A stretch of 64,000 nucleotides of DNA from an uncultured Pseudoruegeria sp. (GTDB taxonomy: Bacteria > Pseudomonadota > Alphaproteobacteria > Rhodobacterales > Rhodobacteraceae), in the NCBI GenBank assembly GCA_947498155.1, contig CANMJD010000001.1, positions 310,001 to 374,000 of the forward strand, read 5' to 3'. Positions 12,028 through 62,763 of this stretch are shown here, one piece after another; the first letter of the stretch is position 1, and each line of letters opens with the position of its first letter. The notes beneath the pieces were generated by a model. The model had not been told where the DNA came from, did no database searches, and saw nothing but the letters and a program-made list of their open reading frames with translations. Both the position numbers and the translations under genes were made by a program.

Positions 12028-12199
12028 TCACCTAATTTAGAACATAATGAGAACATTTGGAATGGTGAAAACCAAACCCTTGAAATGCAACAGAGTCGGT
12101 GGCGCGACTGCCGGTGTCGCATTTTGCCTAGTTAAACCTGAAAAACATGCGCAAGAATAGCGCAACACCTGGCCTCGGCCTGCAATAGGAGAATTCGAA

Positions 12200-12904
12200 A
12201 TGTCAGAAGAAGAAGATGACATCATCCTGTCCGAACTGCCGGACGACGAGCTGGTCCAACAGATGTTTGACGATCTGTATGACGGTCTCAAAGAAGAGAT
12301 CGAAGAAGGCGTCAACATTCTTTTGTCCCGCGATTGGGCGCCCTACCGCGTTCTGACAGAGGCCCTTGTTGGCGGCATGACCATTGTCGGTCAGGACTTC
12401 CGCGATGGCATCCTGTTTGTGCCCGAAGTTCTGCTCGCCGCCAACGCGATGAAAGGCGGCATGGCAATCCTGAAGCCGCTGCTGGCGGAAACCGGTGCCC
12501 CGCGCGTCGGCAAGATGGTCATCGGCACGGTCAAAGGTGACATCCATGATATCGGCAAAAACCTTGTCGGCATGATGATGGAGGGGGCCGGATTCGAAAT
12601 TGTCGATCTGGGGATTAACAATGCGGTGGATTCCTACCTTGAGGCCCTCGCCGCCGAAGATGCCGATATTCTCGGCATGTCGGCCCTGCTGACCACCACG
12701 ATGCCCTATATGAAGGTTGTCATCGACACGCTGGTCGAAAAGGGCCTGCGCGACGATTATATCGTGCTGGTGGGGGGGGCGCCCCTCAACGAAGAATTCG
12801 GCAAAGCGATTGGGGCCGATGCCTATTGCCGCGACGCCGCTGTTGCCGTTGAAACCGCCAAGGATTTCATGTCGCGCAAACATAACCAGATGGCCGCTGG
12901 CTAA
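12200..12904 (+). CDS. Corrinoid (B12-binding) methyltransferase protein
   Basis: KMVIGTVKGDIHDIGKNLVGMMMEGAGFEIVDLG: DxHDxGKN-type cobalamin-binding motif plus helical cap domain. Confidence 0.93.
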   Translation: MSEEEDDIILSELPDDELVQQMFDDLYDGLKEEIEEGVNILLSRDWAPYRVLTEALVGGMTIVGQDFRDGILFVPEVLLAANAMKGGMAILKPLLAETGAPRVGKMVIGTVKGDIHDIGKNLVGMMMEGAGFEIVDLGINNAVDSYLEALAAEDADILGMSALLTTTMPYMKVVIDTLVEKGLRDDYIVLVGGAPLNEEFGKAIGADAYCRDAAVAVETAKDFMSRKHNQMAAG

Positions 12905-13002
12905 ACCGATTGTGCCGCCCTTCGGGGTGGCACCCCCTTCCCGACCCTTGGCAAACGCGCTGCAAAAGCCCATTTGTGATCTGTCAACACAGGGAAACCC
13001 CG

Positions 13003-13167
13003 ATGCCGCTGAAAACCTTTGCCCTACTTCTTGTGTCCGTCGCTCTGGCGGCGCTGCTGACCGTGGCATTGGCCTTTGGTCTTGGCGCCGGTGCGGCGGG
13101 CATGGGCACGCTTTTTGCCTTTGGTATCATCGCGCTTCTGGCGCGGCTTTTGTTATTGGCAAGGTAA
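13003..13167 (+). CDS. Small predicted membrane protein
   Basis: MPLKTFALLLVSVALAALLTVALAFGLGAGAAGMGTLFAFGIIALLARLLLLAR, two hydrophobic segments between two functionally linked genes. Confidence 0.5.
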   Translation: MPLKTFALLLVSVALAALLTVALAFGLGAGAAGMGTLFAFGIIALLARLLLLAR

Positions 13168-41500: not shown

Positions 41501-41850
41501 TACCGCTGCAACGCACATCATCGGCGGGTGTGTCTGTCGGTGGGGTGCGGTTTAAAGCCTGGCAACCGTCCTCAGCCCTGCATCCGGTGCTGCCGGTGAA
41601 TGCGCCGCTGACCTTTGACATTTATGATACGTGGACGGGGCGGCCTTTGGGCGGCTGTGTCTATCACGTTGCCCATCCGGGCGGGCGCAATTATGACACC
41701 TTCCCGATCAACGGTAACGAGGCGGAATCTCGGCGGTTGTCGCGCTTTTTGCCCCATGGTCACACGCCGCACGGCTATGTGCTGCAAAGCGAAATGCCCC
41801 ACCGCGAATTTCCGATGACCCTTGATCTTCGACGGGCCCCGTGGATGTGA
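38512..41850 (+). CDS. Transglutaminase-like plus DUF2126 protein
   Basis: N-term [24 protein letters not shown], core [50 protein letters not shown], long DUF2126 C-terminal half. Confidence 0.92.
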
Positions 41851-44225: not shown

Positions 44226-44228
44226 CCC

Positions 44229-45110
44229 ATGCGCTATAGTATCACCTTGAAAATTAATTATGATTATCCCGACGGGGCAAGCGGCGGACGGCAGTTGCTG
44301 TACCTGACCCCTGCGGACCTAGGGGCGGAACAACAACTGCTCTCAGCCCAGCTCAGCAGTATTCCGGCCGCAGCAGCGAGCAGCCGACGGTTTGATTTTT
44401 TCGGCAATACCGTGCAGGCATTTCAATACCCCGGCCTTGCAACCCGCATGACCCTGCATATGCAGGCGCTCGTCAACCGCAGTGCCCTGCTGCACCCGCA
44501 GGGCTATATGCCCCAAGTGTCAGCCCTTGCGATGTTGATTGACGGCAGCCGTTCGCTTGCGCCCGACTCGCCGCATCACTTTGACCATGCCCAACCGGAA
44601 TTGCCCGAGGTCCCCGCAATTTCTGCCTATGCGCGCGCGATTTGCAGACCCGAATTACCCGTCATCGAGGCCCTGCGCCTGTTTGGCGAATCCCTGCATC
44701 GCGATATGCAGTTTGATGCGCAGGCGACAGATGTCAGCACCCCGCCAGCGCGGGCCTTTGCCCAGCGAAAAGGGGTTTGTCAGGATTTTTCTGGTATCAT
44801 GATCACCGGCTTGCGCGCCTGTGGCATCCCTGCCGGCTATGTCAGCGGCTATCTCAGAACCCTGCCGCCACCGGGTCAGCCACGACTCGAAGGGGCGGAT
44901 GCCATGCACGCCTGGGTGCGGGTCTGGTGCGGGCCAGAAGTGGGTTGGGTTGAATATGATCCGACAAATGCGGTTTTCGCCAATAACGATCATATCGTTG
45001 TCGCGCGTGGTCGCAGTTATCAGGACGTGGCCCCCGTTAGCGGGATTCTGCAAGCCGCAGGTGCTCAAAGCAGCACGCAAATGGTGGATGTGAAACCAGT
45101 TGCGGAATGA
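44229..45110 (+). CDS. Transglutaminase family protein
   Basis: MRYSITLKINYDYPDGASGGRQLLYLTP..., KGVCQDFSGIMITGLRACGIPAGYVSGYL, DAMHAWVRVWCGPEVGWVEYDPTN. Confidence 0.92.
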   Translation: MRYSITLKINYDYPDGASGGRQLLYLTPADLGAEQQLLSAQLSSIPAAAASSRRFDFFGNTVQAFQYPGLATRMTLHMQALVNRSALLHPQGYMPQVSALAMLIDGSRSLAPDSPHHFDHAQPELPEVPAISAYARAICRPELPVIEALRLFGESLHRDMQFDAQATDVSTPPARAFAQRKGVCQDFSGIMITGLRACGIPAGYVSGYLRTLPPPGQPRLEGADAMHAWVRVWCGPEVGWVEYDPTNAVFANNDHIVVARGRSYQDVAPVSGILQAAGAQSSTQMVDVKPVAE

Positions 45111-46504: not shown

Positions 46505-46560
46505 GAGAGCATGAGAGCATGAGAGCATGAGAGCATGAGAGCATGAGAGCATGAGAGCAT
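46505..46560. repeat. 8-bp tandem repeat, 7 perfect copies of GAGAGCAT
   Basis: Direct count: gagagcat x7 between the HlyD gene and the partial tRNA-Pro copy. Confidence 0.97.
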
Positions 46561-46607
46561 GGCGCGTTTTGCCTTAACTCTCAACAGGATCTATTTAGAT
46601 ACAGGTA

Positions 46608-46660
46608 AAATGGTCGGGACGGCAAGATCCGAACGTGCGACCTACGGTACCCAAAACCGT
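46608..46660 (-). repeat. Partial tRNA-Pro (3' half) direct duplicate, putative distal att site
   Basis: 53 bp, 51 identical to 62684-62736; covers CCA end to anticodon loop of tRNA-Pro, then diverges. Confidence 0.92.
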
Positions 46661-47232
46661 TTAGGATATTTGGTATACATAAATAAATTTGTAAACTTAC
46701 CCGAAAACGACTTCCAAAGAACAAAGACTTTGAAGGCGTTTGCAAACTATATTTAGGGACCGCAACCATCAAAAATTTTGACGACGATTGGTTCGTGATT
46801 ACGGAACAAGTATTTTTGATTGCCTGTAAGGTATTTCCCCAAACGGAAGTGTTTCATTTGGGGCAGGCATTCCGGCGGTTATCACACGGGACGCCGCTGC
46901 ACATTGCGGGTTTCTTGAAACACGCCTCGCGGCACCAGAACCGAAATTAGGCGAAAATTGTTGTGCATCAGAGGCTTGAGCTCTAAATTTCTCTCGACAA
47001 AGCGGAAACAAAACGAGAAACGGTGAAACTCCGTAAATGTTGATAATAGGCTGACAGTTTTCTGGCAGGCTGGGACAAAAGCGGCCCAAACCGGACCTTC
47101 ACCTATCCTCGGCAATGGTGCGATGCGGCCCGTCATTGCGGACTTTCGCGGCAACTGCAAAATCAATCGCTAGGCGAATTCATAGTTCGCGAACAAAACT
47201 GTCCTCCAAATAAATCGAGTAGATGTCCGCTA

Positions 47233-47676
47233 TCAGGATTTCTCATCCTTGATTACCCTTGTGTCCCGCTTGCCAGACGCCATCAGCCACAAAGCAAGCA
47301 GCGGAAAACCCACCAGCTCAAATGCCAGTGACGGGGCAATCGCTGCGCTAAATATGACCTCAGTGTCCATGCCGTTAAGTCGAAACAGACCCGCGATTGC
47401 GACCATAGCCGACAGAATAATCAAAGTTGAGCGAAACATGCGCATTGCAAAGCCGCCAATCATGAACGCAGCACCGACGCCAAACCAGACCCCACCAATG
47501 AACCGAATGTGGCTATCTTGAGCATGGAATGTTGCAGCATCTGTGATCGAAACAAAATCGCGCGTCGATTGCCATCCCAGCGTCATTATCCCGCCTAGGC
47601 CGACATTCAAACCTAGGAAGACGATTACAGCACCAACGATCACAACAACCGAGTTCAATAAGTTTGTCTTGTTCAT
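47233..47676 (-). CDS. DUF4345 domain protein
   Basis: Four-TM small protein LGLNVGLGGIMTLGWQST...DSHIRFIGGVWFGVGAAFMIG. Confidence 0.75.
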   Translation of the reverse strand: MNKTNLLNSVVVIVGAVIVFLGLNVGLGGIMTLGWQSTRDFVSITDAATFHAQDSHIRFIGGVWFGVGAAFMIGGFAMRMFRSTLIILSAMVAIAGLFRLNGMDTEVIFSAAIAPSLAFELVGFPLLALWLMASGKRDTRVIKDEKS

Positions 47677-47714
47677 TTCACGTTTCCTAAATGCACGCCT
47701 GTGGGTCCATAATA

Positions 47715-47780
47715 ATTAGTACGCGTTCTATATTAATGTGACCTTGACAAGGCAAGCATTATTTGGGACGCGTTCTAAAA
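47715..47780. promoter_or_regulatory. Candidate TetR operators, two copies of ACGCGTTCTA
   Basis: TTAGTACGCGTTCTAT (47721-47730 core) and GGGACGCGTTCTAA (47768-47777 core) in the divergent intergenic region; each an imperfect palindrome around ACGCGT. Confidence 0.6.
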
Positions 47781-47801
47781 TAAATTGAAGAGGGCCTAAC
47801 T

Positions 47802-48398
47802 ATGGCTAGAACCGCTGGCAGGCCGCCCCGCAGCAAGGCTGAAATTCTGGAGTTCCGATCAAAGATCGGGAAACACGCGCTTGAGATTTACCGAACGGAA
47901 GGCTTCGGGGCGGTTTCAATGCGCCGTTTGGCCAGAGAGGTCGGATGCGCGCCGATGACAATCTACGCTCATTTTGAGGGCAAGACCGATATTCTACGAT
48001 ACCTATGGGCAGACATCCTTGCGGACATGTCCAATGACATCGAGACAACGCTGAATTCGGTCGATGGTGCGCGAGAACGGCTGCAATCAGCTGCACAAAC
48101 CTTCCTCGCCTATTGGATTGACCACCCCGATCATTTTCGACTTGTATTTATGTCCAACGACGTGACGCGGGCGGATGTCAGTAAGTTCGTTATGGACGAA
48201 GACACCTTGGCCCACTTCCGGGTGTTTTCGGGTTTGATCAGAGAGGTTCATCCGGAAGGACATGACGTCAAAGTGAGTTCTGACACGCTCATATCTGGAT
48301 TGATCGGCATTGCTCTGTGTATGAACACCGTTGCTGATTACCCATGGTCCAACGCGACCTCGATGACCAACCAGTTACTATCAAGCATCACTGCGTAA
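47802..48398 (+). CDS. TetR/AcrR family transcriptional regulator
   Basis: HALEIYRTEGFGAVSMRRLAREVGCAPMTIYAHFEGKTDILRYLW. Confidence 0.9.
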   Translation: MARTAGRPPRSKAEILEFRSKIGKHALEIYRTEGFGAVSMRRLAREVGCAPMTIYAHFEGKTDILRYLWADILADMSNDIETTLNSVDGARERLQSAAQTFLAYWIDHPDHFRLVFMSNDVTRADVSKFVMDEDTLAHFRVFSGLIREVHPEGHDVKVSSDTLISGLIGIALCMNTVADYPWSNATSMTNQLLSSITA

Positions 48399-48904
48399 AC
48401 CGTTTCGCAATTGAGGAAAAGCTGACGTTCGTGCATCTTGCAGCATCGGTGAGTGTGGACTCTTTTCAGTCGTTCTCTGCAAGTTATCCGAATGCCAGCT
48501 ATGGGCCGTTCTCGACGATCTACACGACGGGCGTAAACCGGACCTGCGCTGCAGCGCTTTCCACAGGCTGCCAACGCGCAAAAGCGGACTCTGCAAGTTC
48601 AAAGATGGCGGCCCATCATTTGATGTCCAGTCGCTGATTCGGGAAAGTTCGGTATCGGTCGGGTGGCTGGTGCTAAAATGCGTGAAGTAACCTCGAAAAA
48701 ATAGCGTTCATAACAAGGGTCCAAAACGGTCGCACTAGCATGACCACAATCCCTTGCTTCGATATGTCGAACATCAGATGGAAGTATATCGCCAACCTTC
48801 CACCACCAACCAGACAAAGCCAACGAAAGATTTGGGCCTAAATATTTTTGAATTCGAAGTTCTCTTGTCTTAACTTGCAAAAATGGAGATTAGGATTTTT
48901 AGTT

Positions 48905-50449
48905 ATGTTAAGAATTTGTGGAATACTGGGGCTCTCAATCGCACTTGCAAGTCCCTCAATTGCAAATGATGTCGCTATTTTGAATGGCAGGGTGATAGAT
49001 CCTGAAACCGGTCTGGATGCTGTCCGCAACGTCGCAATCGAAAGTGGCAAAATCACAGCAATTAGCGAGTTCGCGTTGACCGGTGAAACCGTGATAGACG
49101 CTTCGGGCCATGTCGTCTCTGCGGGCTTCATCGATCTGCACGCTCATGGGCAAAACATTGGCGACTATAGGATGCAAGCGATGCAGGGCGTGACTACCGC
49201 GCTCGAATTGGAGTCCGGGGTGTTGCCGATCAAGGACTGGTATGCCACTCAAGAGGAAAAGGGGTTGCCGATCAACTTTGGCGCTTCGGCAGCCTGGACC
49301 TTTGGGCGCATTGCGACGTTTACCAACACCGATCCGCTGGCCACGCCTGGCTATTTTCAGGACGTGCAGGGGCGAGATGACTGGAAACTCGACATAGCAA
49401 GCGCCGAGCAAACCGACCGCATTCTTGCGCTCGTCGAAGGAGGGTTGCGCGAGGGCGCCTTGGGAATCGGGATCAATGCCGGATACGCTCCAGGATATGG
49501 CCAGAAAGAGTATTTCGCGCTGGCAAAACTGGCGGGCAAGTACGGTGCGGCGACCTTTACCCATGTGCGCTATGCCAGCAATCTTGAGCCGCAGAGCTCA
49601 TTTGAGGCAGTGAAGGAGCTCATAGCAAACGCAGCACTCACCGGCACCCACATGCACATCTGTCACATCAACAGCACGTCTTTGTCCGACATTCACGCAA
49701 CTCTCGAACTGGTGAACGATGCCAAGGCGAAAGGTATCAATATTTCTGTGGGTGCCTACCCTTACGGAGCTGCAAACACAGTTGTGGGCGCGGCGATGTT
49801 CAGTGGCGAAAACTGGCGCGAAAGAATGTCGTCTACGGCAGAGAATTTTCAACTGGGTGCTGACCGCATGACCGAGGAAGAATTGGCAGATTATCAAGCC
49901 AACAAGCCCGGCACCTTCATCACATGGCATTTCCTTGACGAGGAAAACCCGACGGATCTCGCTCTGCTCGACGCGTCCATCACGCACCCCGAAATACTGA
50001 TCGAATCCGATTCAGTTTTCTGGTCCTACTTTGACGAAAACGGTGGGATATCCAATTACGAAGGGGATGCATGGCCCTTGCCTGACAACGTGTTCAGCCA
50101 CCCCAGATCGTCTGGCACCTTTGCAAAGATCTTGCGTGAATACGTGCGTGAACGCGGGTTGATGTCGCTGGAAGATGCAATTCGCAAGATGTCCCTAATG
50201 CCCGCGCAGACGCTGGAGGATTTCGTCCCGCAAATGCGCAACAAGGGGCGCATCCAGATCGGGATGGATGCCGATATCGTTGTATTTGATCCAGCAACCA
50301 TTACTGACAACGCGACGTTTGAGAATGCCAACCAACCGGCAACGGGGGTGCAGACGGTTATAGTGAACGGCGGCGTTGTCGTACGCGACGGAGAATTGGT
50401 TCTCGATGCCCCTCATGGCCGCCCGATCCGCCGTCCTCTCGCGGACTAG
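48905..50449 (+). CDS. Exported amidohydrolase, D-aminoacylase-like (paralog 1)
   Basis: Signal peptide; NGRVIDPETGLDAVRNVAIESGKI; GFIDLHAHG (HxH); C-term GRIQIGMDADIVVFDPATITDNATFENANQPATGVQTVIVNGGVVVRDGE. Confidence 0.88.
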   Translation: MLRICGILGLSIALASPSIANDVAILNGRVIDPETGLDAVRNVAIESGKITAISEFALTGETVIDASGHVVSAGFIDLHAHGQNIGDYRMQAMQGVTTALELESGVLPIKDWYATQEEKGLPINFGASAAWTFGRIATFTNTDPLATPGYFQDVQGRDDWKLDIASAEQTDRILALVEGGLREGALGIGINAGYAPGYGQKEYFALAKLAGKYGAATFTHVRYASNLEPQSSFEAVKELIANAALTGTHMHICHINSTSLSDIHATLELVNDAKAKGINISVGAYPYGAANTVVGAAMFSGENWRERMSSTAENFQLGADRMTEEELADYQANKPGTFITWHFLDEENPTDLALLDASITHPEILIESDSVFWSYFDENGGISNYEGDAWPLPDNVFSHPRSSGTFAKILREYVRERGLMSLEDAIRKMSLMPAQTLEDFVPQMRNKGRIQIGMDADIVVFDPATITDNATFENANQPATGVQTVIVNGGVVVRDGELVLDAPHGRPIRRPLAD

Positions 50450-50493
50450 GCATCACCAGAAGCATTTAAGTAATTGGTTTTAAGGAGAAGATT

Positions 50494-52119
50494 ATGAAGC
50501 AAAGCCCTGCTTTCGCCCTTGCATTGTCAGTTCTGGCACTGAGTACATTTTCTGCCCAGTCGCAGGAGTTCGATATTGTCATCAGCAACGGTCGGGTGAT
50601 GGACCCCGAAACCCTCTATGATGGCGTTGCGAATGTCGGCATCAAGGAGGGTCGGATTGCAAAGATCTCCAGGCAGCCTCTTTCCGGCACATCCGAGATC
50701 GACGCGACTGGTCATGTCGTGGCGCCTGGCTTCATCGATACGCATTTCCATTGGCAGGCGCCGCTCGGCTATGCGCTTGGCCTGCGCGATGGGCTGACCA
50801 GCAGCATGGACATTGAGGAAGGCTGTGCCGGAACTGTCATCGCCAAGTGGTACGACTTGCGCAAGGATGTCACCCAAGCCAACTATGGCTGTGCTTCAAG
50901 CCACGAACAGGCGCGTGCCATGGCCATTGACGGGTTCGACAATGAGGACGTCTTGGTGATGGGGCCAGCGGCCGCCTTAGAGACGCGAAAAGACTCGGGC
51001 TGGAGCCTTGGGAAGGCGGATTTCGACAGCGGAAACGAGATTTTGCGGATCATCGACAAGGGCTTGCAGGATGGTGCTCTGGGCATCGGCAGCACGGTTG
51101 GGTATATGCGGGATGGGGTCACCACCCGCGAAATGTTTGAAGTGCAAAAGGTTGGCGCGCGATACGGTCGACACACGGCCGTTCATACCCGCTTCACGCC
51201 AGACGATTCAGTCCACGAGAACCTGGGAGCGCAGGAGATCATCGCCAATGCGCTCGCTCTGGGTGCACCGGCCACAATTAACCACTACAACAATCCCGGT
51301 TGGCGTCTGGCCCATGAGATCATCCAACGACTTCAGAAACAGGGTCACAACATCTGGGGTGAAATCTATCCCTATGCTGCCGGCTCGACGGCTTTGAACG
51401 CTGTGTTTATTCAGCCAGAGAATTGGGTGGATCGTCTTGGCCATCGGTTCGAAGACACATTGCAAGATCCAATCACAGGTGATTTCTACACCGAGAAATC
51501 CTACACTGAGGGCGTGGCGAGCGACCCCACAAAAGAAATTCTCCTGTGGAAAATGCCGGCGGAGGACTCGGTAAAATGGCTGACGCTGAAAGGCACGACC
51601 ATGGCGAGTGACGCCATGTTTGCCGAACCGCTCTTCGGACCATGGGACACCCCATTCGAGCAGCTCAGCAATACCCATCCGCGTGCCGCGGGAGCTCGGA
51701 GTATCTCTCTGCGTCTGGGTCGTGAGAATGACATCCCGCTCATGCAACTGCTATCCATCCTGAGTTACAATGCAGCAAAGCACTTGGGAGACACTGGTCT
51801 CAAGGCCATGCAGGAACGCGGCCGCATGCAAGAGGGCATGATCGCAGACATCGTAGTCTTTGATCCCGAAACGGTGACCGACAACGCCACCTATGAACGG
51901 GGCGTGATCCCGTCGACGGGCTTCAAGGCTGTAATCGTGCATGGCACGGTCACAGTGCGGGACGACGAATTGCTCGAAGTTTTCGCGGGTCAGCCAATCC
52001 GCTTCGATCCTGAAGCCAAACCACGGTTTGAGCCGGTTTCAGAGGAAGCCTGGAACCTCGATTTTTCCACCGGCATGCCAGATGTTGCGCCCGGCATTCC
52101 GCCTAAGGGTGGGAACTGA
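50494..52119 (+). CDS. Exported amidohydrolase, D-aminoacylase-like (paralog 2)
   Basis: Signal peptide; [73 protein letters not shown]. Confidence 0.9.
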   Translation: MKQSPAFALALSVLALSTFSAQSQEFDIVISNGRVMDPETLYDGVANVGIKEGRIAKISRQPLSGTSEIDATGHVVAPGFIDTHFHWQAPLGYALGLRDGLTSSMDIEEGCAGTVIAKWYDLRKDVTQANYGCASSHEQARAMAIDGFDNEDVLVMGPAAALETRKDSGWSLGKADFDSGNEILRIIDKGLQDGALGIGSTVGYMRDGVTTREMFEVQKVGARYGRHTAVHTRFTPDDSVHENLGAQEIIANALALGAPATINHYNNPGWRLAHEIIQRLQKQGHNIWGEIYPYAAGSTALNAVFIQPENWVDRLGHRFEDTLQDPITGDFYTEKSYTEGVASDPTKEILLWKMPAEDSVKWLTLKGTTMASDAMFAEPLFGPWDTPFEQLSNTHPRAAGARSISLRLGRENDIPLMQLLSILSYNAAKHLGDTGLKAMQERGRMQEGMIADIVVFDPETVTDNATYERGVIPSTGFKAVIVHGTVTVRDDELLEVFAGQPIRFDPEAKPRFEPVSEEAWNLDFSTGMPDVAPGIPPKGGN

Positions 52120-52125
52120 CCTGAA

Positions 52126-52887
52126 ATGTTTGGAAAAAACTGGATGCACTATCCCGTTGCTGCCTTTGCGGTTGTGATCATGAGCTCACAGGCCATGGCC
52201 GAACCGCAGGGCATCAGTTTTTCAGAGCTGCGGGATCCTGCAGCTCTGATATACGAAGACCCGTTCCAGGACATGGGCCTCCAAATGCTGGAGGAGCTTC
52301 GGACTGTCGTCAGGCTTGAGGCTAGGTTTGAGCAAGGCGACATTCCGGAAGACGCGCAAGAACGCCTAATGACCAGCCTTGAAGATGCCCGAAAACGGCT
52401 TCGGGACAATGGACATGATATCGAAGCTCTTTTGACGCAGCGTTGGACAGTTGCAGAAAACCGTAAGCGTGCCACCACCGCGACGAACCCCGAGCTTGAG
52501 AATGCGTACGTCAGAATGAATGGCTTTCTTATTCCGGCGGGATCCAATGACGCAGGGTTCCCGATTGCATATCTCGTTCCAGAAATTGGCATGTGCAGCC
52601 ATAAACCCGCGCCTCCTCCGAACCAACTTGTCCGTGTCCTGCTTAAAGAACTGTCTCCAGTCAACACACCCTACGTTATGGTACAGGTTTCCGGGACTCT
52701 TCGGGCGCACCCCAGCGATGAGACCATCTTTATCTCAGATGGAGAAACCCGAATGCACAGTATGTGGCAACTCAATGCAAAGGATGTTGTTGCGGCCACC
52801 GGATTTGCGAACAGGGTTACTCTTGATGGATGGCAGGAGCTTTTGCAGACGAAAACACTCGCACGGACGTCACCAGACGCAGACTGA
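52126..52887 (+). CDS. DUF3299-like exported protein
   Basis: Signal peptide; VRMNGFLIPAGSN...FPIAYLVPEIGMCSHKPAPPPNQLVRV resembles the DUF3299 CxHxPPPPPNQ segment. Confidence 0.65.
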   Translation: MFGKNWMHYPVAAFAVVIMSSQAMAEPQGISFSELRDPAALIYEDPFQDMGLQMLEELRTVVRLEARFEQGDIPEDAQERLMTSLEDARKRLRDNGHDIEALLTQRWTVAENRKRATTATNPELENAYVRMNGFLIPAGSNDAGFPIAYLVPEIGMCSHKPAPPPNQLVRVLLKELSPVNTPYVMVQVSGTLRAHPSDETIFISDGETRMHSMWQLNAKDVVAATGFANRVTLDGWQELLQTKTLARTSPDAD

Positions 52888-53032
52888 AATCAGGAGAAGC
52901 AGCCGTCTTAATATGGGCAAGGTGTCAGACGGCAGCGTGAAACAGCGATGCGCATAAACTAGCTCCCCGACTTTAATCCGAGGAGCATGCTTGCGTGTGG
53001 TTTTCAGTAGGGTCCCTTTTTACCAAAAGCGA

Positions 53033-53075
53033 TCTGTTCACGCCGTGGTGGGTTCCTTACCACGGCGTGAACAGA
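53033..53075. terminator. Perfect 17-bp inverted repeat between convergent genes (terminator-like)
   Basis: TCTGTTCACGCCGTGGT-GGGTTCCTT-ACCACGGCGTGAACAGA. Confidence 0.6.
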
Positions 53076-53098
53076 GTCAAGATAACTGACGTTAAACG

Positions 53099-54790
53099 TT
53101 ATTCTGACGCGCTAGAGTCAGCCTCTGCCGGGCTGTCCGCGCCGGATTGGTCGACGGTGAAGGGTTTGATCGCGAAATTCTCCAACCACTCCTTAACAAC
53201 GATAGGCTCAAATCGGCCGCGATCTTCTACTGGAAAGCGGATGGGTTGGCCGGCCCATACTTTTCGGAACGCTCCATCCTTGACCACCAGTTGACCGTTG
53301 ACGATGACGTAGGGAATACCTGTTGTCGGATTACCCTGTTCACCAGCTTTGTAAGTAGCATTGTCACGAACGCGCTCTGGATCGAATATGGTGATATCAG
53401 CCACCATCCCTTCCTGCATACGACCACGCACCTTCATGTCTTGGAGACCTGTATCGCCTAGGTGTTTCGCCGGCCAATACGACATTTGCGCAATGGTAAA
53501 CATGAGCGGAACACCTTGTTCGCGCCCAAGCCGAAACACCGTTCCGCGGGTGCCAGCCGTTCTTGGGTGCCCCTGATACTCAGACGGATCAAGATCCCAA
53601 CTATCGAGACCTTTGCCAGAGTAGATCGAGTCAGAGGCGACAATCATGTGCGGCATCCGCAGCCAATAGGGCAGCCATATTTCGCGGGAGGGGCTGAAGA
53701 CCACCACAAGGCGGCTTGGGTCAGAATCCCGCGTTGACTCATATTCCGCCTGCGTAAGGAACTTGTCGGCGATGGGATCGTACATCGAGTCTTCGTACGG
53801 AACGCCGAAGGTTGCGTAGACTTCGGGCTTGAAGAAGTCGGAGGAAATTGACGTCGAAGCTGCGGTGTACGGATAGTACTCTGACCAAACATTGTACCCT
53901 TGGGCTCTGGCGGCTTGCAGCTTTTCCTCGTTCTCCCACCAGCCATAATCATTATTGTGCAACAGGCTTACAGGTGCATCAAGCGCCATCGCGTTGGCCA
54001 GAATTTCATCAAAGCCCAAAGGCGCTTCAGGTGTCACAGGACTACCGTGGAAACGAACATGCGCCCCAAGGTAACGGCCGTAGATTCCACCAATCTCTTG
54101 CGTCTTGAACATCTCGTAGGTTGTAAGGCCATTGGCCATATAGCCCACAGTAGAAGAAATATTGAGTGCGCCTTGACGAAGCTCTTCATCGATAAGAGAC
54201 AAAACCTGATTCAACTGATCCAGATCGCTGCGTCCGTCCTGCCAACCGCAGAACCCGTCCGAACAGGCCTCTGCCCGAAGACCGCCCAGTATAAGCGGCG
54301 CATCATACCAGCCGTCAATCTCGACTTCTGGGTCGTGCACCCGCAATCGAGCGCCTTCTTGGCTAACACCAGTGCCATAGTTCAATGGCCACGCGCCTTC
54401 TTTGGCGCTGTACCATTCGCCAACGTTTATGGCCCCGATCTCAAGGTCCATACCGGTCGTAACGCCGTCCAAAGCAGCCAACTTCAACGACAGACCGTCT
54501 AGTGCATGAAAATGGAAATCGATGAATCCTGGCGACACGACATGCCCTTGCGCAAAGATCGTCTCGCTACCGGTAATCTCGTCCGCCGTGATCGTCTGGA
54601 TGATGCCATCCGTGATACCCACATTAAGGACGGCGTCCAACATCGTTTCAGGGTCCATGACGCGACCATTGAGGATTACTAAGTCATAATCCTGCGCAAA
54701 AACCGGTTGGCCGAAAACCAATCCGGCCGTTAGGGCCAACGCGGAATACGCCGTGAATTTACCTCTGATTTTCTTGATGGGAATTGACAT
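53099..54790 (-). CDS. Exported amidohydrolase, D-aminoacylase-like (paralog 3)
   Basis: Signal peptide; [76 protein letters not shown]. Confidence 0.9.
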
Positions 54791-54822
54791 CCAAAAACTC
54801 TCCTTTTTGCCTAAAGTCATGG

Positions 54823-55188
54823 TTATTCAAGTGCAAGCGGGTCATAGGATCCGCGTTTCGGCGTGTTCGTACGTGAAAAATTTAGGGCAACGGACCGGCT
54901 TTCAAAGCGCTGATGCGTGCCACAGAACACTTGAGAGATGCTTGCGCCGTTGCTACTGGGTGCCCCGCCTTTTCCCAGCGTCGCGCCAATCGTGCTAAGG
55001 TCGAGCGCAGCCGAGCGCACAAGATCATCAAAAGCAGTGGTGCCTGTCCCCGAGTTGATATTCTCGGCCTCCGTTTCTAGGGAAGTGTTGGAAATCAGAC
55101 CATTCAGATCGATTGCGTTAATGGTCTCTGCGCCGGATAGCGTTGCAGACGCGGAAAATATCGTCGCAGTTAGTATGTGCCGTAACAT
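54823..55188 (-). CDS. Small exported hypothetical protein
   Basis: [49 protein letters not shown]...; signal peptide; between paralog 3 and a barrel gene on the same strand. Confidence 0.5.
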
Positions 55189-55255
55189 AGTGTTTCCAGT
55201 ACTAGTTCTAGTCAAATTCTTGATTGGTTCAATGTCGCGCCAATTGCGAAAAGCC

Positions 55256-56122
55256 TCAAAAGTTCAAAACTTTGAAGCCGACTTCAAACGACCAGTCGAT
55301 CGGAGCGTCCTTGCCAATTCCTACGCCGGGCTTGATAAAAACTTGGCTGTCTCCGCCAAAAAGCTTACCCGTTAACATTCCGAAGGTGACCTGCAGGCTG
55401 CCAAACGTTTCGTCGCGTTCCCAGTCATGGACAATGGCAGGGTCAAAGGTCATGAATAGTTTCGGATTGGACAGCTTGGGCACGTAGTAGAAATCCAACG
55501 TAGTTGTGTTGAGTTTGTTTCCAGCACTATTGCCGCCCTCCAAACCAAAGGTCTGCACCCAAGCCGGAGCAAAAATTGAGCCATTGTCGAGGAACATCGC
55601 ATAAAATAGCGAAGTCTCGAGCGCCATTTGACCATAGCCGGCATCATTGCTTGCCGTGTCAAAAAACAGCTCTGCGGTGTAGGCGGCACCCGCCTTTGGA
55701 GTCAGGTGGAAGACATTGAGAAACGTCAGGCTGACGTCCCCGTATGTAGTATCTTGAAACAGGTTCGAGTTTGGACGGAGGTTCGGGTTGTCCGCAAACG
55801 GAACAGTAAGCTTCAATGCCTTGGAGCCATCCCCGATCGGGCGTTGGTAGAAAAACTCCAGTAGTCCGTTGTTCAAGCTCGGGTTTATTTTATTATACGA
55901 ATATTGCAGACCCATCTGTGTGGTCAACTTGGTGGGGTTAGTCCCATTTTCGGCATCTGCCGTGTCGCCAAGTTGTCGTTGAATGTTATCAAGATTTGCA
56001 CCGTCCTGAGCCGACGTCGGCACCGAAAGAAACAGGGTGACCGCAAATACTGTTGATGCGACAAATGTAAAGCTTTTGGAGAATGCTATGACACCGCTGA
56101 GTTGTCTCTGTTTCCCAGTCAT
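55256..56122 (-). CDS. Predicted outer-membrane beta-barrel protein of unknown function
   Basis: Signal peptide ending SVPTSAQ; alternating-hydrophobicity strands; C-terminal aromatic residue (FKVLNF). Confidence 0.6.
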   Translation of the reverse strand: MTGKQRQLSGVIAFSKSFTFVASTVFAVTLFLSVPTSAQDGANLDNIQRQLGDTADAENGTNPTKLTTQMGLQYSYNKINPSLNNGLLEFFYQRPIGDGSKALKLTVPFADNPNLRPNSNLFQDTTYGDVSLTFLNVFHLTPKAGAAYTAELFFDTASNDAGYGQMALETSLFYAMFLDNGSIFAPAWVQTFGLEGGNSAGNKLNTTTLDFYYVPKLSNPKLFMTFDPAIVHDWERDETFGSLQVTFGMLTGKLFGGDSQVFIKPGVGIGKDAPIDWSFEVGFKVLNF

Positions 56123-56166
56123 ATTCTTTCCTCGAGGATTAACCATCTTCAGGACTCCGCACTGCT

Positions 56167-57453
56167 TTAAAAAGCTATTCGCGCGCGAAGTCCGACCATG
56201 GCGATCGTATCCTTGTTTGGATTAAATGCAGGATTATGAATAATCTGGATGCTTGGTGTGAGCTCGAAGCCCTGCGTTAACTGCCATTTTTGAAAAGCTT
56301 CAACCGTGATTTGGTCGTCTAGCCCAGCTCCAAAGGTATCTTCGTTAGGACGGCTCCAGTTGACACCCAAACCTAGGATGCTTCGACTTGGATCCTGCGT
56401 GTAGCCAAATCCAGCGCTCAAAGCAGCTTCATAGAGGCTCCCGCCCCCATCCGACCAGCCCCCGCGCAGAAATGGGAACCAGCTATCGTTCACGATTTTG
56501 CTCAGACTGAAGGCAACACCATGCCCCTTAGGAGTTCCGGCTTTTTCGCGTTCATCAATCTGCCAAAACGTCAAATGTGCATTATTTACGAAACGAGCGC
56601 TTTGCTCCGTTGTCCAGCCGATTTCAACAGACTTAAACGTCTCACCTTCGCCGAAAAGCGTATCCCATCCAGCAAGTGGATCCGCAGCGTCAGCGTTGGC
56701 GTCCGCAATGCCCGCGGCCACGTAGACGTTGTCGTTCAAAAAGTAACCCGCTGCCACACCAAGGGAACCATCCGGCAATCCACCAATCGTGCCGGAGCCG
56801 GTCTGAAATGCGAGATTGGAGAAACCGCTCCAAGGACTCGCTAGAGCATAGACATCAACATAATCGGTTACATCCAGCCAGCCGACGTAGGCAACGCCCC
56901 GACCCTCGGCAAAATTTTGTTCCCAGTAGAGATGCGTGGTGCGCCATCCCTGATCACTGAATACAGAACTGACGAGACCTGCATAGCCCAACTCCAAACC
57001 GAAGTCGGTGAGGGCTACATCTCCGTATTTGTGCCGGTGTTCGAATTTGAACACAAGGCTGCCGCTGTTCTCGGTCCCACGGCCTGTCAGCTCCCAAGAA
57101 CCAAAAAAACGAAATGCGCCGCCGCCAGCCGAATCTTCACCAAGGCTACTAGACGCAGTAAATCCTAAGGCATTGTAGTCAAAGCCGATATCTAGGCCGG
57201 TTCTTTCCTTTAGGTCAGCCTTTTTGTCTGACCACGTTTCAAGAAGATCGGTATCCAAAACATCATTCTTGTCCTGACTCCCGGACGCCAGCAGGGACGG
57301 TGTAGAATCCGGTCCGGAAAGCGCTTCTTTGGCGGATTTTGCCTGGAGCGCCATTGGAAAGGAGGACATGAGGACCGTAGCACACAATCCAAATGTTGCT
57401 TGGTTCACTAAAGAGAAGGCTTTCATGTGCTTTTGTTTGTGTGGGGTAATCAT
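56167..57453 (-). CDS. Carbohydrate-selective porin (OprB family)-like
   Basis: Signal peptide; LTGRGTENSGSLVFKFEHRHKYGD, GWLDVTDYVDVYALASPWSGFSNLAFQTGSGTIGGLPDGSLGVAAGYFLNDNVYVAAGIADANAD; C-term ...VGLRARIAF. Confidence 0.78.
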   Translation of the reverse strand: MITPHKQKHMKAFSLVNQATFGLCATVLMSSFPMALQAKSAKEALSGPDSTPSLLASGSQDKNDVLDTDLLETWSDKKADLKERTGLDIGFDYNALGFTASSSLGEDSAGGGAFRFFGSWELTGRGTENSGSLVFKFEHRHKYGDVALTDFGLELGYAGLVSSVFSDQGWRTTHLYWEQNFAEGRGVAYVGWLDVTDYVDVYALASPWSGFSNLAFQTGSGTIGGLPDGSLGVAAGYFLNDNVYVAAGIADANADAADPLAGWDTLFGEGETFKSVEIGWTTEQSARFVNNAHLTFWQIDEREKAGTPKGHGVAFSLSKIVNDSWFPFLRGGWSDGGGSLYEAALSAGFGYTQDPSRSILGLGVNWSRPNEDTFGAGLDDQITVEAFQKWQLTQGFELTPSIQIIHNPAFNPNKDTIAMVGLRARIAF

Positions 57454-58802
57454 AAAGTGTCCTTAAAAACTTTTCCGCCCTTCATAATGAGCCCAAGCCC
57501 AGTTTCAGGTTCCGCCATAAGTGAGATGTCTTCCAATGGATTTCCGTTAACCAAGAGGAGGTCTCCGTATGCGCCCTCCCTGATCCTGCCTAACGGACCA
57601 TCAAGATAAGGGTGGCGTCGGCCAGACCGTTCAAACAGCTCCGCATTCAAGGAAGTCGCTTGACGAAGAATGTCGACAGGCTCGTAATACGCAGTACGTG
57701 CCACAAATTCCTGACTCTGGAACGGGCCCAAGTCGATCGTGCCCAAAATATCAGTCCCGAAGGCCATTTTCAGTCCAAGCGCCTTAGAGCGTTCGTATCC
57801 GTTGGTCGCTCCTGCCTGTGCCTCAAGGTATTTTGGAACGGAGCTCCCAGTCATCCCGGCCTGTTCAGGCCCCACGCTGAAAGACAAAAACTGGGTAGAA
57901 AAGAAGATGTCGGCGTCTTTCATCATTTGCATCGTTTCTTCGGACGCAAAGAGGCCATGTTCGATTGATCGTACGCCAGCTTTGATAGCTGTTTGTATCG
58001 CCACATCGGTATAGGCGTGGATCGTCGCATAGGTGCCCCAATTTTTGGCGGCCTGAACGATCGCGGAGAGCTCTTCCTGAGTGTATTCTGTGACGTCTAG
58101 AGGGTCATGTGCACCAGTAATCGAGCCAGAGCCCATGATCTTTATCTGGGTCGCGCCATATCTAAGTATTTCCCGGGCCGCTTTCTGCACCTCGGGCACA
58201 CCGTCGGCAATAATCGTCCAACCCCGCAAATATGCGGGGTCTATCTGGTTGGTGAAATGCGGCGAAAGATAATTCATCCTTGGGTCGAAGTCACCATGGC
58301 CAGATGTCTGAGAAATGAAGAACCCTGACGGAAGTATTCGGGGACCAGGGACGACGCCGCTGTCAATTGCCTGTTTCAGCCCGAAGGACGGACCGCCCAT
58401 GTCGCGTACAGTTGTGAAACCGCGCATCAACATGCGCTCTGCACTTTGAGCTGCCATGGCCCCCGTGTATTCTTGGGGGGACTTATAAATCAGATTTTCA
58501 ATGGTATCGTTCCACATGATGTGGACATGTGCGTCACTCATTCCGGGCGTCAGAGTTCGCCCGTCGGCATCGACCACAGTGGCATCAGCGTCTGACAATG
58601 CCTCGCCTACCTCGGCGATCATCCCATCGCGCACCAAAACGTCGAGCCCGGTCATCAACTCTTCTGATGTTCCGTCAAAGATTTTTGCACCGCGGATAAG
58701 CGTAGCTTTGGCCGAAGAGACCTGCGCGCGTCCGGTGTTTGGAAAAACAGTCGCTGCGGCACTCCCCGCAACAAAGGCTCTTCGATTAAGCTTCAACATC
58801 AA
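57450..58802 (-). CDS. Exported amidohydrolase, imidazolonepropionase/prolidase-like
   Basis: MMLKLNRRAFVAGSAAATVFPNTGRAQ (Tat-like leader), GMSDAHVHIMW (HxH), GVRSIEHGLFASEETMQMMKD, AFGTDILG. Confidence 0.88.
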   Translation of the reverse strand: MMLKLNRRAFVAGSAAATVFPNTGRAQVSSAKATLIRGAKIFDGTSEELMTGLDVLVRDGMIAEVGEALSDADATVVDADGRTLTPGMSDAHVHIMWNDTIENLIYKSPQEYTGAMAAQSAERMLMRGFTTVRDMGGPSFGLKQAIDSGVVPGPRILPSGFFISQTSGHGDFDPRMNYLSPHFTNQIDPAYLRGWTIIADGVPEVQKAAREILRYGATQIKIMGSGSITGAHDPLDVTEYTQEELSAIVQAAKNWGTYATIHAYTDVAIQTAIKAGVRSIEHGLFASEETMQMMKDADIFFSTQFLSFSVGPEQAGMTGSSVPKYLEAQAGATNGYERSKALGLKMAFGTDILGTIDLGPFQSQEFVARTAYYEPVDILRQATSLNAELFERSGRRHPYLDGPLGRIREGAYGDLLLVNGNPLEDISLMAEPETGLGLIMKGGKVFKDTL

Positions 58803-59394
58803 CTGTCTCCGGAAAAAAAATCAACAATCAGGAAACGGTAACCGGCAACCACGTATTAAGCGCCATATTTCAAGGCCCAAATCTTTCACCTCGCCAACCA
58901 ATATGAAAACTTCATGTGGCGAACCTCTAAGTCACACAAGTGCAATCCGCAGTGTCCGAGGGACCCGAGGACCATCCTTTGCGTCAAGTTCGTGCCCCGA
59001 CAAGGCGCTGCAGTGCAGATTCCGGAAGTGGAACCAATATCGAAACCTAAGTTGAAGTTCAGAATGAACCGCATTTAGAATCAGTGACCAAACGAAATTC
59101 CGTTTTGTCACTAAGCCAAATTTTGAGCATGAGCGCTTGAAGCGACCATTCCGCAGGGAATTTGTATTTGCGCAATCTACGACACCAGCAGCTGCTCAAA
59201 TCCGGAGACCGAAGAAGGGGATCATCTCCTTATCAGTCCCCCCCTCGAGATCTTCACACGATTTTTTGTTGTGACAGATATCAAGGCATGCTCAACTATC
59301 AGCAAACATAATATTGTTCGCCGTGTGCGTATCTATCTTGCGCAGGTTTTTCGGCTTGTTTTTGATTGAGGTAGCGATTGGTTTTTGATCTTCT

Positions 59395-60417
59395 GTGAAA
59401 AGTGATTTCGATACACTATCGGGTTTGCTTGCCCCTTCGGACCTCGGGAGGACATTGGGCCTGCGCCCAATAACAACTATGCGCGAGCAAAACATCGGGC
59501 TGCCGATTGTCGAAGGCGGTATCGTTTTTTTGGGTAAACGCCCCCCAGCGATGCGCGCCTTCAAGATGGCTGGTCGGCATTGCGTGATCACGCGCATGCA
59601 TGTGCCACAAGCTTATACAGCTTACAATGTTCCGGATCCAAATTGGATCACCCTGCATATCCCTCTTACTTGGAGCGGGGACTATGTTTTTGATGGATGC
59701 CAGGTCCGCGAGGGCGACGCCTTTCTTGCAGACTGTTTAAACGGCTATTCGACAGCGGGCGAGAACCGAGATGCCATCACTTTGGGCGCAACACGCGAAG
59801 CAATTGAATCTGCGATGCGCTCCATGAATGGCGGGTGTGATAGTGCTTTCGAATTTTGCGCATCGATTATTCAGCCAAGCCCCGTCCTGTTACAAGCCGT
59901 TGCGGGGCAGATCCACGCCGCCATAGAGGTGGAGCGTTCACTAGGCACTCGCCGAGAACTACATTTTATGCCTGAAGTTGTTGAGCGCGACTTCATAGAT
60001 ATTTTAGCTATGGAATTCCGTTCGGCCGAAAGTACGAACGTAGTAACAAGTGGACTGAGCCGTCGAGCCGTCGATGTAGTTGCCGAGGCACGGCAGCTTA
60101 CACTCTCGCACTCTAGTTCCGTACCTAGTCTTTCGGAAATCTGCGCGATAACGGGTGTAGGTCAAACCCGTCTTTTTGAGTGCTTTCAAGAGGTGCACGG
60201 CTTGTCCCCATACAAGTGCCTTATGGCGTTCAGGTTGAGTGCCGCGCACGAAAGATTAACCGACAAAGACAATCCGCCGCACTCGGTGAAGCAAGTCGCA
60301 CTGGACTCGGGCTTCGTTAAACCAGGACGTTTTGCAGAGAGTTTTCTCAGGCAATTCGGTGAACTCCCATCTGAGATTCTTAAACAAACCCAACACGAGG
60401 CGTTGATGAACAAATGA
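59395..60417 (+). CDS. AraC family transcriptional regulator
   Basis: C-term HTH: SLSEICAITGVGQTRLFECFQEVHGLSPYKCLMAFRLSAAHERLTDKDNPPHSVKQVALDSGFVKPGRFAESFLRQFGELPSE; likely GTG start. Confidence 0.9.
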   Translation: MKSDFDTLSGLLAPSDLGRTLGLRPITTMREQNIGLPIVEGGIVFLGKRPPAMRAFKMAGRHCVITRMHVPQAYTAYNVPDPNWITLHIPLTWSGDYVFDGCQVREGDAFLADCLNGYSTAGENRDAITLGATREAIESAMRSMNGGCDSAFEFCASIIQPSPVLLQAVAGQIHAAIEVERSLGTRRELHFMPEVVERDFIDILAMEFRSAESTNVVTSGLSRRAVDVVAEARQLTLSHSSSVPSLSEICAITGVGQTRLFECFQEVHGLSPYKCLMAFRLSAAHERLTDKDNPPHSVKQVALDSGFVKPGRFAESFLRQFGELPSEILKQTQHEALMNK

Positions 60418-61313
60418 CAAACGAGGCAACAGTTATTTGCGAGGGCTTAGTTTGGCCTGAAAGCCCGCGCTGGCATGCTGGAGAGCTCTGGATAACGGAG
60501 GCCTTTGCAGAAAAATCTGGAGTCAGCTCTGTCTCTATAGATGGTACGCAAACACTACATATCCCGGTCTCCGGTGGCCCCGCTGGAATGGATTTTCTGT
60601 CCGATGGTACGGCGGTGTTAGCTGCTGCGTTCGATCGAAAAGTCCTCAAGCGCCACCCTGATGACGAAGCGTTTTCAACCTTTCTTGATCTTGACGGCAT
60701 TGCGGCTTACCCCAATGAATTGATTGTTGGGCCAGGCGACCGGATTTTCATCGCGGATAGCGGCTTTCAGGTCGGCGTCGATCCTTACCAGTCAGGGCGA
60801 CTTATTGTTGTGGAAACCGACGGAACCACAAGTGTTCTCTGCGACGAACTGCCCTTTCCAAACGGCCTTGCAATCACACCCGACGGTCAAACCCTGACCT
60901 TTGCAGAGTCATTTGCAGGCCGCCTGTCACAATTGAAGTTTGGCTCAGAGAACAATCTTCTGGAGCACTATGTACACGTTGCCTTTGATACCCTGGGCGT
61001 GATTGAAGACTTTGAAGCAACCTTCACACGCAAGTCCGCTCCAGATGGAATATGTCTAGACGAAATCGGTAACATATGGGTCGCTAACCCGCTTGAGGCC
61101 AAAGTCCGATGTTTTTCTCCCACTGGAGAGCAGGTTGATGAGGTTGTAATCTCTCAAGGTGGAATTGCATGTATGCTCGGTGGCCAAAATGGCAGAACCC
61201 TCTTTGTTTGTACCGGTGATCCATTAGCGATGGCGCAACAAAACGGCCGAATAGAGATAGCAGAAGTCGATGTTCGCGGCGCGGGCTATCCGCGATCTGT
61301 CATGCCCCAATAA
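60414..61313 (+). CDS. SMP-30/gluconolactonase/LRE family protein
   Basis: CEGLVWPESPRWHAGELWITE; LPFPNGLAITPDGQTLTFAESFAGRL; APDGICLDEIGNIWVANP. Confidence 0.88.
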   Translation: MTNEATVICEGLVWPESPRWHAGELWITEAFAEKSGVSSVSIDGTQTLHIPVSGGPAGMDFLSDGTAVLAAAFDRKVLKRHPDDEAFSTFLDLDGIAAYPNELIVGPGDRIFIADSGFQVGVDPYQSGRLIVVETDGTTSVLCDELPFPNGLAITPDGQTLTFAESFAGRLSQLKFGSENNLLEHYVHVAFDTLGVIEDFEATFTRKSAPDGICLDEIGNIWVANPLEAKVRCFSPTGEQVDEVVISQGGIACMLGGQNGRTLFVCTGDPLAMAQQNGRIEIAEVDVRGAGYPRSVMPQ

Positions 61314-61407
61314 CGTGTTAAGTCCTTGGTCTGGACCAGACTGCATGATCCAACGAGATATATTCCCTAAAAGTAGCTCGCACGTGACCTGCTCCCCTTT
61401 GAGTCCG

Positions 61408-61902
61408 CTAATTTAGGTTAGCTCTGTTCAGGTTTTGGTCTTCCTTTGACCTGTTAGCATATTCTGCTGGCGTCAGGCCAGCGAGGCTTGTGTGCGGGCG
61501 GTGATTGTCGAAGTCGTTGCGCCACGCTGTGATCAGACTGTGTGCATGCCGTAGACTGTTGAAGATGTGTTCGTTCATTGGTGTTCTGGTGCCCACTGCA
61601 CGCTTGCGCCCGCTACGCTTACGAACCGTTAACCCTTCTTCGCGGTAGATCCGGTAAAGCTTCTTCCAGTTCACACGCCAGCCCTCCCGCTTGAGCAAGA
61701 TGTGCAGTCGACGATACCCAAACCGCCGCCTCTCGGACGACAGCTCCGTCAACCGATCCCGCAAATCAGTGTCCGCTGGCCGCTTTGATGTCCGCCGATA
61801 GACACGTGGATCAATCCCGGCCAAAGCGCAGGCCCGCTTCTGACTATATCGTTTCTCTTTCATGGCCCAGGTCGCAGCGTTGCGTCGCGATCCGGGCCTC
61901 AA
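61408..61902 (-). pseudogene. IS3-family transposase OrfB with in-frame deletion of the DDE core
   Basis: ...LYRIYREEGLTVRKRSGRKRAVGTRTPM|NEHIFNSLRHAHSLITAWRNDFDNHRPHTSLAGLTPAEYANRS: joins N-terminal HTH_21 part directly to the C-terminal tail. Confidence 0.88.
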
Positions 61903-62165
61903 AAGTTTTTTCCCCGCATTTCCTTCAGCGTCGACACATCCATCATCTGCTCAGCAAGCAACTTCTTCAGCCTGGCATTCTCGGCTTCAAGCGCCTTCAG
62001 CTCTCTTGCGTCAGACACTTCCATCCCGCCATACTTGGACCGCCATTTGTAAAACGTCGCATCGCTGACACCGTGCTTGCGGCATAGCTCCGCAGCTGTC
62101 GCGCCCGTCTGATGTTCCTTCAGTATCCCGATAATCTGCTCTTCGCTGAAACGGCTTCTCTTCAT
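61899..62165 (-). CDS. IS3-family transposase OrfA
   Basis: MKRSRFSEEQIIGILKEHQTGATAAELCRKHGVSDATFYKWRSKYGGMEVSDARELKALEAENARLKKLLAEQMMD. Confidence 0.95.
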   Translation of the reverse strand: MKRSRFSEEQIIGILKEHQTGATAAELCRKHGVSDATFYKWRSKYGGMEVSDARELKALEAENARLKKLLAEQMMDVSTLKEMRGKNF

Positions 62166-62239
62166 CGTCTATCTCCTAAGTTGGAGAACAGGCTAACAAT
62201 AAACGCCGGACATTTCAGGGGAGCAGGACACGCGTCACA

Positions 62240-62625
62240 CAGAAGATGGCCAAACTAATCGACGCGACTCCTAGCGATCAGAAAACTTTTTTGTCGAACA
62301 ACGTGGCAAGTCTTACAAACACGAAAACTATCTTGGCGATGCAATTTCATCAGAGCGAGACCAGATTCTAAGAGCATTTGAAGCTAGGAATCTCCATGCC
62401 CCATTTCGTAAAGACCTGCGCCTATATGATGCACGCGGCACAGCCGCCACCAGGTTGCTAAAAGCCAACGCCAAAATCTCAGAAATCGCCACAGCTATGG
62501 GCTGGTCCATCAAGCAGGCCACGACAATAATTGAAAGCTACGCGGCTTTGCATCCTGACATGGTCGATTCCCTAGGCGAGAAAATACGTCTATTTGAAAA
62601 GGGTAAAACCGGAACGAAACTGTAA
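62240..62625 (+). pseudogene. Decayed tyrosine recombinase/integrase C-terminal remnant
   Basis: Reads VEQRGKSYKHENYLGDAISSERDQILRAFEARNLHAPFRKDLRLYDARGTAATRLLKANAKISEIATAMGWSIKQATTIIESYAALHPDMV...*; N-terminus missing, frame broken upstream; abuts the IS3 element. Confidence 0.75.
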
Positions 62626-62686
62626 ACCATTGTGTAAACCGGCCCAATTTCGGAACCAACAGCATCCGCTAAGTTGTTGATTTAAA

Positions 62687-62763
62687 TGGTCGGGACGGCA
62701 AGATTCGAACTTGCGACCTACGGTACCCAAAACCGTCGCGCTACCAGGCTGCGCTACGCCCCG
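62687..62763 (-). tRNA. tRNA-Pro (UGG)
   Basis: Minus strand cggggcgtagcgcagcctggtagcgcgacggttTTGGgtaccgtaggtcgcaagttcgaatcttgccgtcccgacca; 77 nt with CCA. Confidence 0.95.

Follow-up and report, generated by a model that had tools for sequence, protein, structure and literature searches.

Genes and borders of the island

The window analysed here is a stretch of 64,000 nucleotides from the 3.71-Mb draft genome of an uncultured Pseudoruegeria sp. (contig 1, 310001–374000), for which the nearest named matches, like the relatives picked up in the searches, were Rhodobacteraceae-type bacteria. Within it lies a cluster of ten genes, all of them open and in place as originally predicted, with two operons, A1-A2-DUF3299 and A4-OprB-barrel-small protein-A3. 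The four amidohydrolases (A1–A4) match the amidohydrolase Pfam families PF07969/PF01979, and Pfam searches also confirmed the DUF3299 (PF11736), OprB (PF04966), AraC-type (HTH_18) and SMP-30 (PF08450) proteins.

The genes had been described as the cargo of an island, and this was borne out by a direct repeat and an empty site. The island spans 46608–62736 (16.1 kb), its ends being set by a direct repeat of the 3' part of a tRNA-Pro gene. ARAGORN placed this gene, the integration site (tgg), at 62687–62763 on the minus strand; the right repeat lies at 62684–62736, and the left attachment-site copy, a partial duplicate of 53 nt at 46608–46660 (plus strand), is a 96% match to it. Only these two copies occur within the window. 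Two genomes of the same genus (G298 and G299) carry the tRNA-Pro gene with neither the duplicate nor the island genes. To the left of the island (about 27–46.6 kb) the sequence of G298 and G299 is likewise different, and so represents a variable stretch adjoining the island. Besides the entire amidohydrolase cluster, the island contains a small membrane protein, a TetR-type regulator (47802–48398, plus strand; PF00440) and, near its right end, an IS3-type transposase fragment (61408–61902, minus strand; PF13276 and PF13683). No integrase was found among ORFs of at least 100 amino acids in 46608–62736, the IS3 fragment being the only such remnant there.

Three old subfamilies of D-aminoacylase-like enzymes

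A1 (48905–50449, plus strand) is an exported amidohydrolase of the D-aminoacylase/PRK09061 type; its ORF opens at TTG 48848, but the likely start is the ATG at 48905. A2 (50494–52119, plus strand) and A3 (53099–54820, minus strand; 87% to L116/G126) are exported members of a second and a third subfamily, assigned by PF07969/PF01979 and by tree, and in A2 also by its invariant metal-site residues. In a PDB search the nearest structures to all three were D-aminoacylase and N-acyl-D-glutamate deacylase. Against the NCBIfam model for PRK09061 (NF006560, cut-off 340 bits) A1 scored well above the threshold (701), whereas A2 (315) and A3 (322) fell just below it. The original prediction of three paralogous D-aminoacylase-like enzymes was therefore right as to enzyme type, but these are not recent duplicates: they are 32–43% identical to each other, and in a tree of 112 amidohydrolases they fell into three separate, well-supported groups, each extending past the host's family.

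The resemblance to the D-aminoacylases extends to the fold and to the HxH, the two His and the Asp of the metal site, which A1–A3 keep. An Arg in an HPR motif and a Tyr are invariant in A2 and A3 (R397 and Y204) and present in A1 also; in D-aminoacylase these residues bind the substrate carboxylate. In A1–A3 other residues take the place of two found in D-aminoacylase, Cys96 at the metal site and Lys252 on the carboxylate side, suggesting that specificity has changed, and all three proteins differ further in being exported. Together with the motifs of class-A-fold proteins in relatives (see below), these conserved and replaced residues favor amide or peptide hydrolysis of carboxylate-bearing substrates, perhaps with D-residues.

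A fourth amidohydrolase, outer-membrane channels and a small protein

A4 (57450–58802, minus strand) belongs to the Xaa-Pro dipeptidase/ochratoxinase group. The amidohydrolase-superfamily prolidases 3mkv (252 bits) and 3feq and the ochratoxinase 4c5y match it over its full length. It differs from them in its Tat-like export leader, and it scores below the equivalog cut-off of the amidohydrolase-type Xaa-Pro dipeptidase model NF051886 (233 bits against 500).

The OprB-family porin (56167–57453, minus strand) matched PF04966 with 66 bits. The neighboring barrel (55256–56146, minus strand), predicted as uncharacterised, matched no Pfam family, and nor did the small exported protein (54823–55215, minus strand). 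An AlphaFold model of the barrel, of low confidence (pLDDT only 58.7), showed 12 strands and an N-terminal helix, with FapF and the COG4313 channel as best PDB matches. The small protein proved to be real, as its one homolog adjoins an A3 gene in Pseudophaeobacter (L119, 11916–12128; 35% identity, E 5e-8).

Signal peptides were called by eye and with a hydropathy heuristic rather than a trained predictor. On this basis A1, A2, A3, the DUF3299 protein, the small protein, the barrel and OprB have signal-peptide-like N-termini, and A4 has a twin-Arg leader (NRRAFVA). These N-termini, taken with the protein families, lead to the prediction of hydrolysis outside the cytoplasm, served by channels in the outer membrane.

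A sugar porin beside D-aminoacylase-like enzymes might also point to handling of amino sugars or peptidoglycan, with the enzymes acting as OngB-like N-deacetylases or deacylating muropeptides. OngB, which N-deacetylates carbohydrates in chitin oxidation, was indeed among the PDB matches of A1 and A2, and OprB is a sugar-porin family. However, OngB scored below D-aminoacylase and N-acyl-D-glutamate deacylase for A1 and A2 alike, and glycosidases, sugar kinases and sugar transporters were all absent from the Pfam-scanned neighbor families, which makes this explanation quite improbable.

A 15-bp element shared by the two operons

The sequence GAAAGATTTGGGCCT occurs at 48825–48839 (plus strand), 66 nt before the A1 ATG, and as a second exact copy at 58873–58887 (minus strand), 71 nt before A4, in the same orientation relative to both operons. 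Across the 3.7-Mb genome these were the only exact copies, and none with one mismatch was found. We estimate the chance expectation of an exact 15-bp match between the two regions (507 and 592 bp) at about 0.0006. A search of the two promoter regions for repeats revealed nothing remarkable besides this 15-mer. In the homologous cluster of a second genome (L039; A4 identity 87%) a copy carrying one mismatch precedes A4 by about 72 nt. We infer that GAAAGATTTGGGCCT is a candidate operator or promoter element common to both operons, and it is probably read by the adjacent AraC-type protein (59395–60417, plus strand; PF12833; 70% in L039). The following gene (60414–61313, plus strand; PF08450; 69% in L039) encodes an SMP-30/gluconolactonase-like protein. 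Both genes are present as predicted, but as parts of the module they are peripheral, SMP-30 lying beside the cluster in only one other organism.

Related loci in other genomes

A scan of named genomes yielded 78 related loci, all found only through relatives of A2 and A3, in Alpha- and Gammaproteobacteria, Bacteroidota, Planctomycetota and others. An apparent extra family (c15) seemed to be an ORF antisense to the class-A-fold gene, as on our reading the two families replace each other at one position in sister clusters, and locus counts were therefore redone by tblastn; another family label (c17) was dropped, being a mislabelled amidohydrolase at several loci. By these counts A4 was present at 31 of the 78 loci, DUF3299 at 26, a class-A-fold hydrolase at 25, OprB at 19, a PF00144 hydrolase at 17, and an M81 peptidase and a DcaP porin at 12 each. 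The absence of an ABC transporter, noted originally, is true of the island, but an ABC ATPase was found at 24 of the 78 and a MacB-type permease at 13. The relatives' loci recombine the island's families with others, namely a LolD/MacB-like ABC transporter, an MlrC-like M81 metallopeptidase and additional exported hydrolases of the SxxK type, so that the originally listed genes, though present, are a subset of the module as it is found elsewhere.

The coherence claimed for the cluster held up, in that its genes co-occur elsewhere and the unique 15-bp element precedes both operons. An uncultured Roseibium (L050) carries A1 (80%), A2 (86%), DUF3299, A4, A3 (70%) and OprB in a single collinear run, and at L039 A3, OprB, A4, AraC and SMP-30 are syntenic with 69–87% identity. 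An A3-type relative was found in 23 of 298 genomes of the family; four of these 23 have A1-A2-DUF3299 (L031, L032, L035 and L036), one has A2-DUF3299 (L037), and the genome with L039 is also among them. The host genome itself contains two further units, barrel-A4-DUF3299 (L130, with a related barrel) and A4-DUF3299-OprB (L131), of which L131 has genes for a relaxase and a T4SS coupling protein nearby. Nine relatives have some 30 DUF3299 genes between them, and about a dozen of these, judged by eye, are no more than about 10 kb away from an amidohydrolase of this kind, where a rough estimate of the expectation is well below one.

Relatives of A2 were also found in 14 plasmid records, mostly at less than 46% identity; the PF00144 protein was absent from all 14. 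Its identity across phyla is 81–93%, and the M81 proteins of Pseudohalioglobus and Robiginitalea are 91% identical, values that are hard to explain without recent transfer. On the amidohydrolase tree (112 sequences) the phylum labels need at least 19 changes, a count to which paralogy can add. The presence of the kit in several phyla, with up to 91% identity for one component, suggests that transfer was recent and that one chemistry has been strongly selected for.

The class-A-fold proteins of the relatives have the SxxK, SDN and KTG motifs, and there are proteins in the related loci that score above the NCBIfam class A beta-lactamase cut-off (NF033103, 233 against 200). A similar lineage-specific block in Vibrio vulnificus L4 has an ABC permease and ATPase, two DUF3299 genes, a D-aminoacylase, a PER-like bla (annotated as PER-1-like) and Dag side by side, as in the relatives' blocks; it was annotated for PCR design only, with no system proposed, and A4 and a porin are not listed (PMC12777771). 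Such genes could indicate degradation of, or resistance to, beta-lactams, in which SxxK enzymes of class A and class C fold would open or acylate the ring and amidohydrolases would remove the side chains. However, Glu166 is replaced in all but one of 21 class-A-fold members: 20 of the 21 aligned sequences have a VDRxTxEI-like sequence in its place, and all 21 have a long omega-region insertion. A high-scoring gene of this kind is also absent from the window and from the host genome, and the class-C-fold protein is nearest to an entry named IS11, followed by D-peptidases. We therefore regard a beta-lactam function as very unlikely.

The DUF3299 protein and zinc

The island's DUF3299 protein (52126–52887, plus strand) matched PF11736 (56.6 bits) and PDB 4hsp, and its GMCSHKPAPPPN motif is conserved. 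DUF3299 is known as ZrgE in Vibrio (PMC9817125) and as PA4066 in Pseudomonas (PMC11481552), which raises the alternative that the genes are accessories of metal acquisition: DUF3299 and the MacB-type transporter would be parts of the Zur-controlled Zrg/PA4063-PA4066 systems, with the exported zinc hydrolases either releasing ligand-bound metal or acting in zinc starvation. Consistent with this, DUF3299 proteins of the amidohydrolase clusters retain a G-x-C-x-H motif, an A1 gene adjoins the Zrg operon in G201/L042, and the surroundings of one plasmid-borne A3 relative include genes for a CobW-type GTPase and a DUF1826 protein. Against it, ZrgA (PF10986) was found only in the host's separate Zrg operon (L128) and at L042, the one amidohydrolase locus to have it, and a scan for Zur boxes detected none in the window and no excess above chance in the related loci. 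The host's own Zrg operon (L128; ZrgA, ABC, MacB and two DUF3299) sits elsewhere with a Zur-like palindrome in front, and the MacB proteins of the amidohydrolase clusters are just 35–42% identical to its MacB. For the island the zinc (Zrg/Zur) reading fails, as there is no ZrgA and no Zur box, and we consider metal acquisition an unlikely explanation. The clusters share DUF3299 (in the island) and a LolD/MacB-like pair (in relatives) with the zinc-starvation operons, but differ in their AraC-type regulators and added exported amidohydrolases. A better view of them is as a distinct branch of the Zrg-type envelope machinery, under AraC-type control.

A proposed kit for stepwise amide hydrolysis

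We lean towards the island being a laterally acquired, jointly regulated extracytoplasmic kit that probably hydrolyses, step by step, the amide bonds of an N-acyl-amino-acid or (D-)peptide-like substrate. The substrate would be a small peptide-like or N-acyl-amino-acid compound that probably bears a free carboxylate and contains D-residues or other unusual ones, and OprB and the 12-stranded barrel would let it across the outer membrane. Once in the periplasm it may lose N-acyl or N-terminal groups to A1–A3, which are of the D-aminoacylase type, and a C-terminal residue could be freed by A4, of the prolidase/ochratoxinase type. The DUF3299 protein might serve as an envelope helper of the metalloenzymes A1–A4, perhaps in metal loading or assembly, and the AraC protein would switch both operons via the 15-bp element. 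In relatives the kit appears to be extended by two SxxK hydrolases, the MlrC-like M81 peptidase and the MacB-type transporter.

With these additions the succession of enzyme types is similar to that of the microcystin mlr cluster. MlrB is a PF00144-type serine hydrolase. The mlr cluster pairs MlrC and MlrB with the dipeptidase MlrE and the D-aminoacylase MlrF (PMC4520899, PMC6256522). Like the microcystin/nodularin cluster (mlrCADB with mlrE and mlrF), the relatives' loci combine M81, PF00144-type, dipeptidase and D-aminoacylase types, and both are horizontally acquired; A1–A3 are, by family, of the D-aminoacylase type to which MlrF is assigned. Unlike it, the window has no M81 or PF00144 gene (and the host genome no M81 gene at all), whereas DUF3299, porins and MacB are extra. 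As the island also has no class-A-fold enzyme, the likeness is strongest in the relatives, where the M81 protein reached only 129.6 bits against the MlrC model NF041767 (cut-off 999). On this view the kit would work like the mlr cluster but does not belong to it.

More broadly, these loci may belong to an unnamed mobile periplasmic amide-degradation system of several phyla whose target is a widespread peptide-like compound, either non-ribosomal or containing D-residues, with DUF3299 as a general helper of exported metallo-hydrolases and not a zinc-uptake part; we put this forward tentatively, at slightly less than even chances. The same tentativeness applies to its suggested parts, namely exported amidohydrolases, Glu166-less beta-lactamase-fold hydrolases, an MlrC-like peptidase, dedicated outer-membrane channels and a DUF3299-MacB envelope machine. 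Such a system would give a functional context to DUF3299, so far just an unexplained part of a zinc-starvation operon, and cautions that the PER-like ‘beta-lactamases’ of these blocks need not confer resistance. The cluster had been called undescribed, and in the open literature searched none of the four papers naming DUF3299 describes such a system; nor did we find anything there linking M81, amidohydrolase and class A enzymes. Being compact and having a unique operator candidate common to both operons, the island lends itself to direct tests of what the substrate is.

Many of the bacteria that carry the kit, among them Pseudomonadota, Bacteroidota, Planctomycetota and others, came from marine or tidal sediments.

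Related loci in the same genome and in relatives

A second A4-DUF3299-OprB unit, A4 being the Xaa-Pro dipeptidase/ochratoxinase-group amidohydrolase of the island, was found elsewhere in the genome (L131, contig C1 1282001-1296000, at 5077-13036 of the locus). The unit adjoins genes for a T4SS coupling protein and a relaxase of the MobA/VirD2 type, which points to a conjugative element. On an Alisedimentitalea plasmid (L137, 7935-12481), an A3-type (D-aminoacylase-type) amidohydrolase with a divergent AraC regulator lies close to DUF1826 and a CobW-type GTP-binding protein, both from families frequently associated with zinc. The Pseudoruegeria genome also carries a zinc-starvation-type operon, ZrgA-ABC-MacB-DUF3299-DUF3299 (L128, contig C3 452001-466000, at 3797-7680). 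The sequence TGTTATAGAATAACA, which resembles a Zur box, lies 23 nt upstream of its ZrgA ORF.

Among further components of related amidohydrolase loci, the M81 peptidases of one gammaproteobacterium and one Bacteroidota species (L056:15746-17410 and L079:13047-14711) share 91% identity, and PF00144 proteins share 81–93% across phyla. In class-A-beta-lactamase-like proteins (L032:6077-7156, L064:11747-12745 and 18 similar), Thr or a comparable residue takes the place of Glu166, and the omega region contains an insertion. Despite scoring above the NCBIfam class A beta-lactamase cut-off, these proteins are unlikely to be products of resistance genes.

Left flank of the island

The island adjoins an operon encoding a DUF2126 transglutaminase-like protein, a circularly permuted ATP-grasp protein and a transglutaminase (38512-45110), in which the gene at 44229-45110 had no match in either of two same-genus genomes. 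Immediately left of the island's left repeat is a tandem repeat of the 8-bp unit GAGAGCAT (46505-46569).
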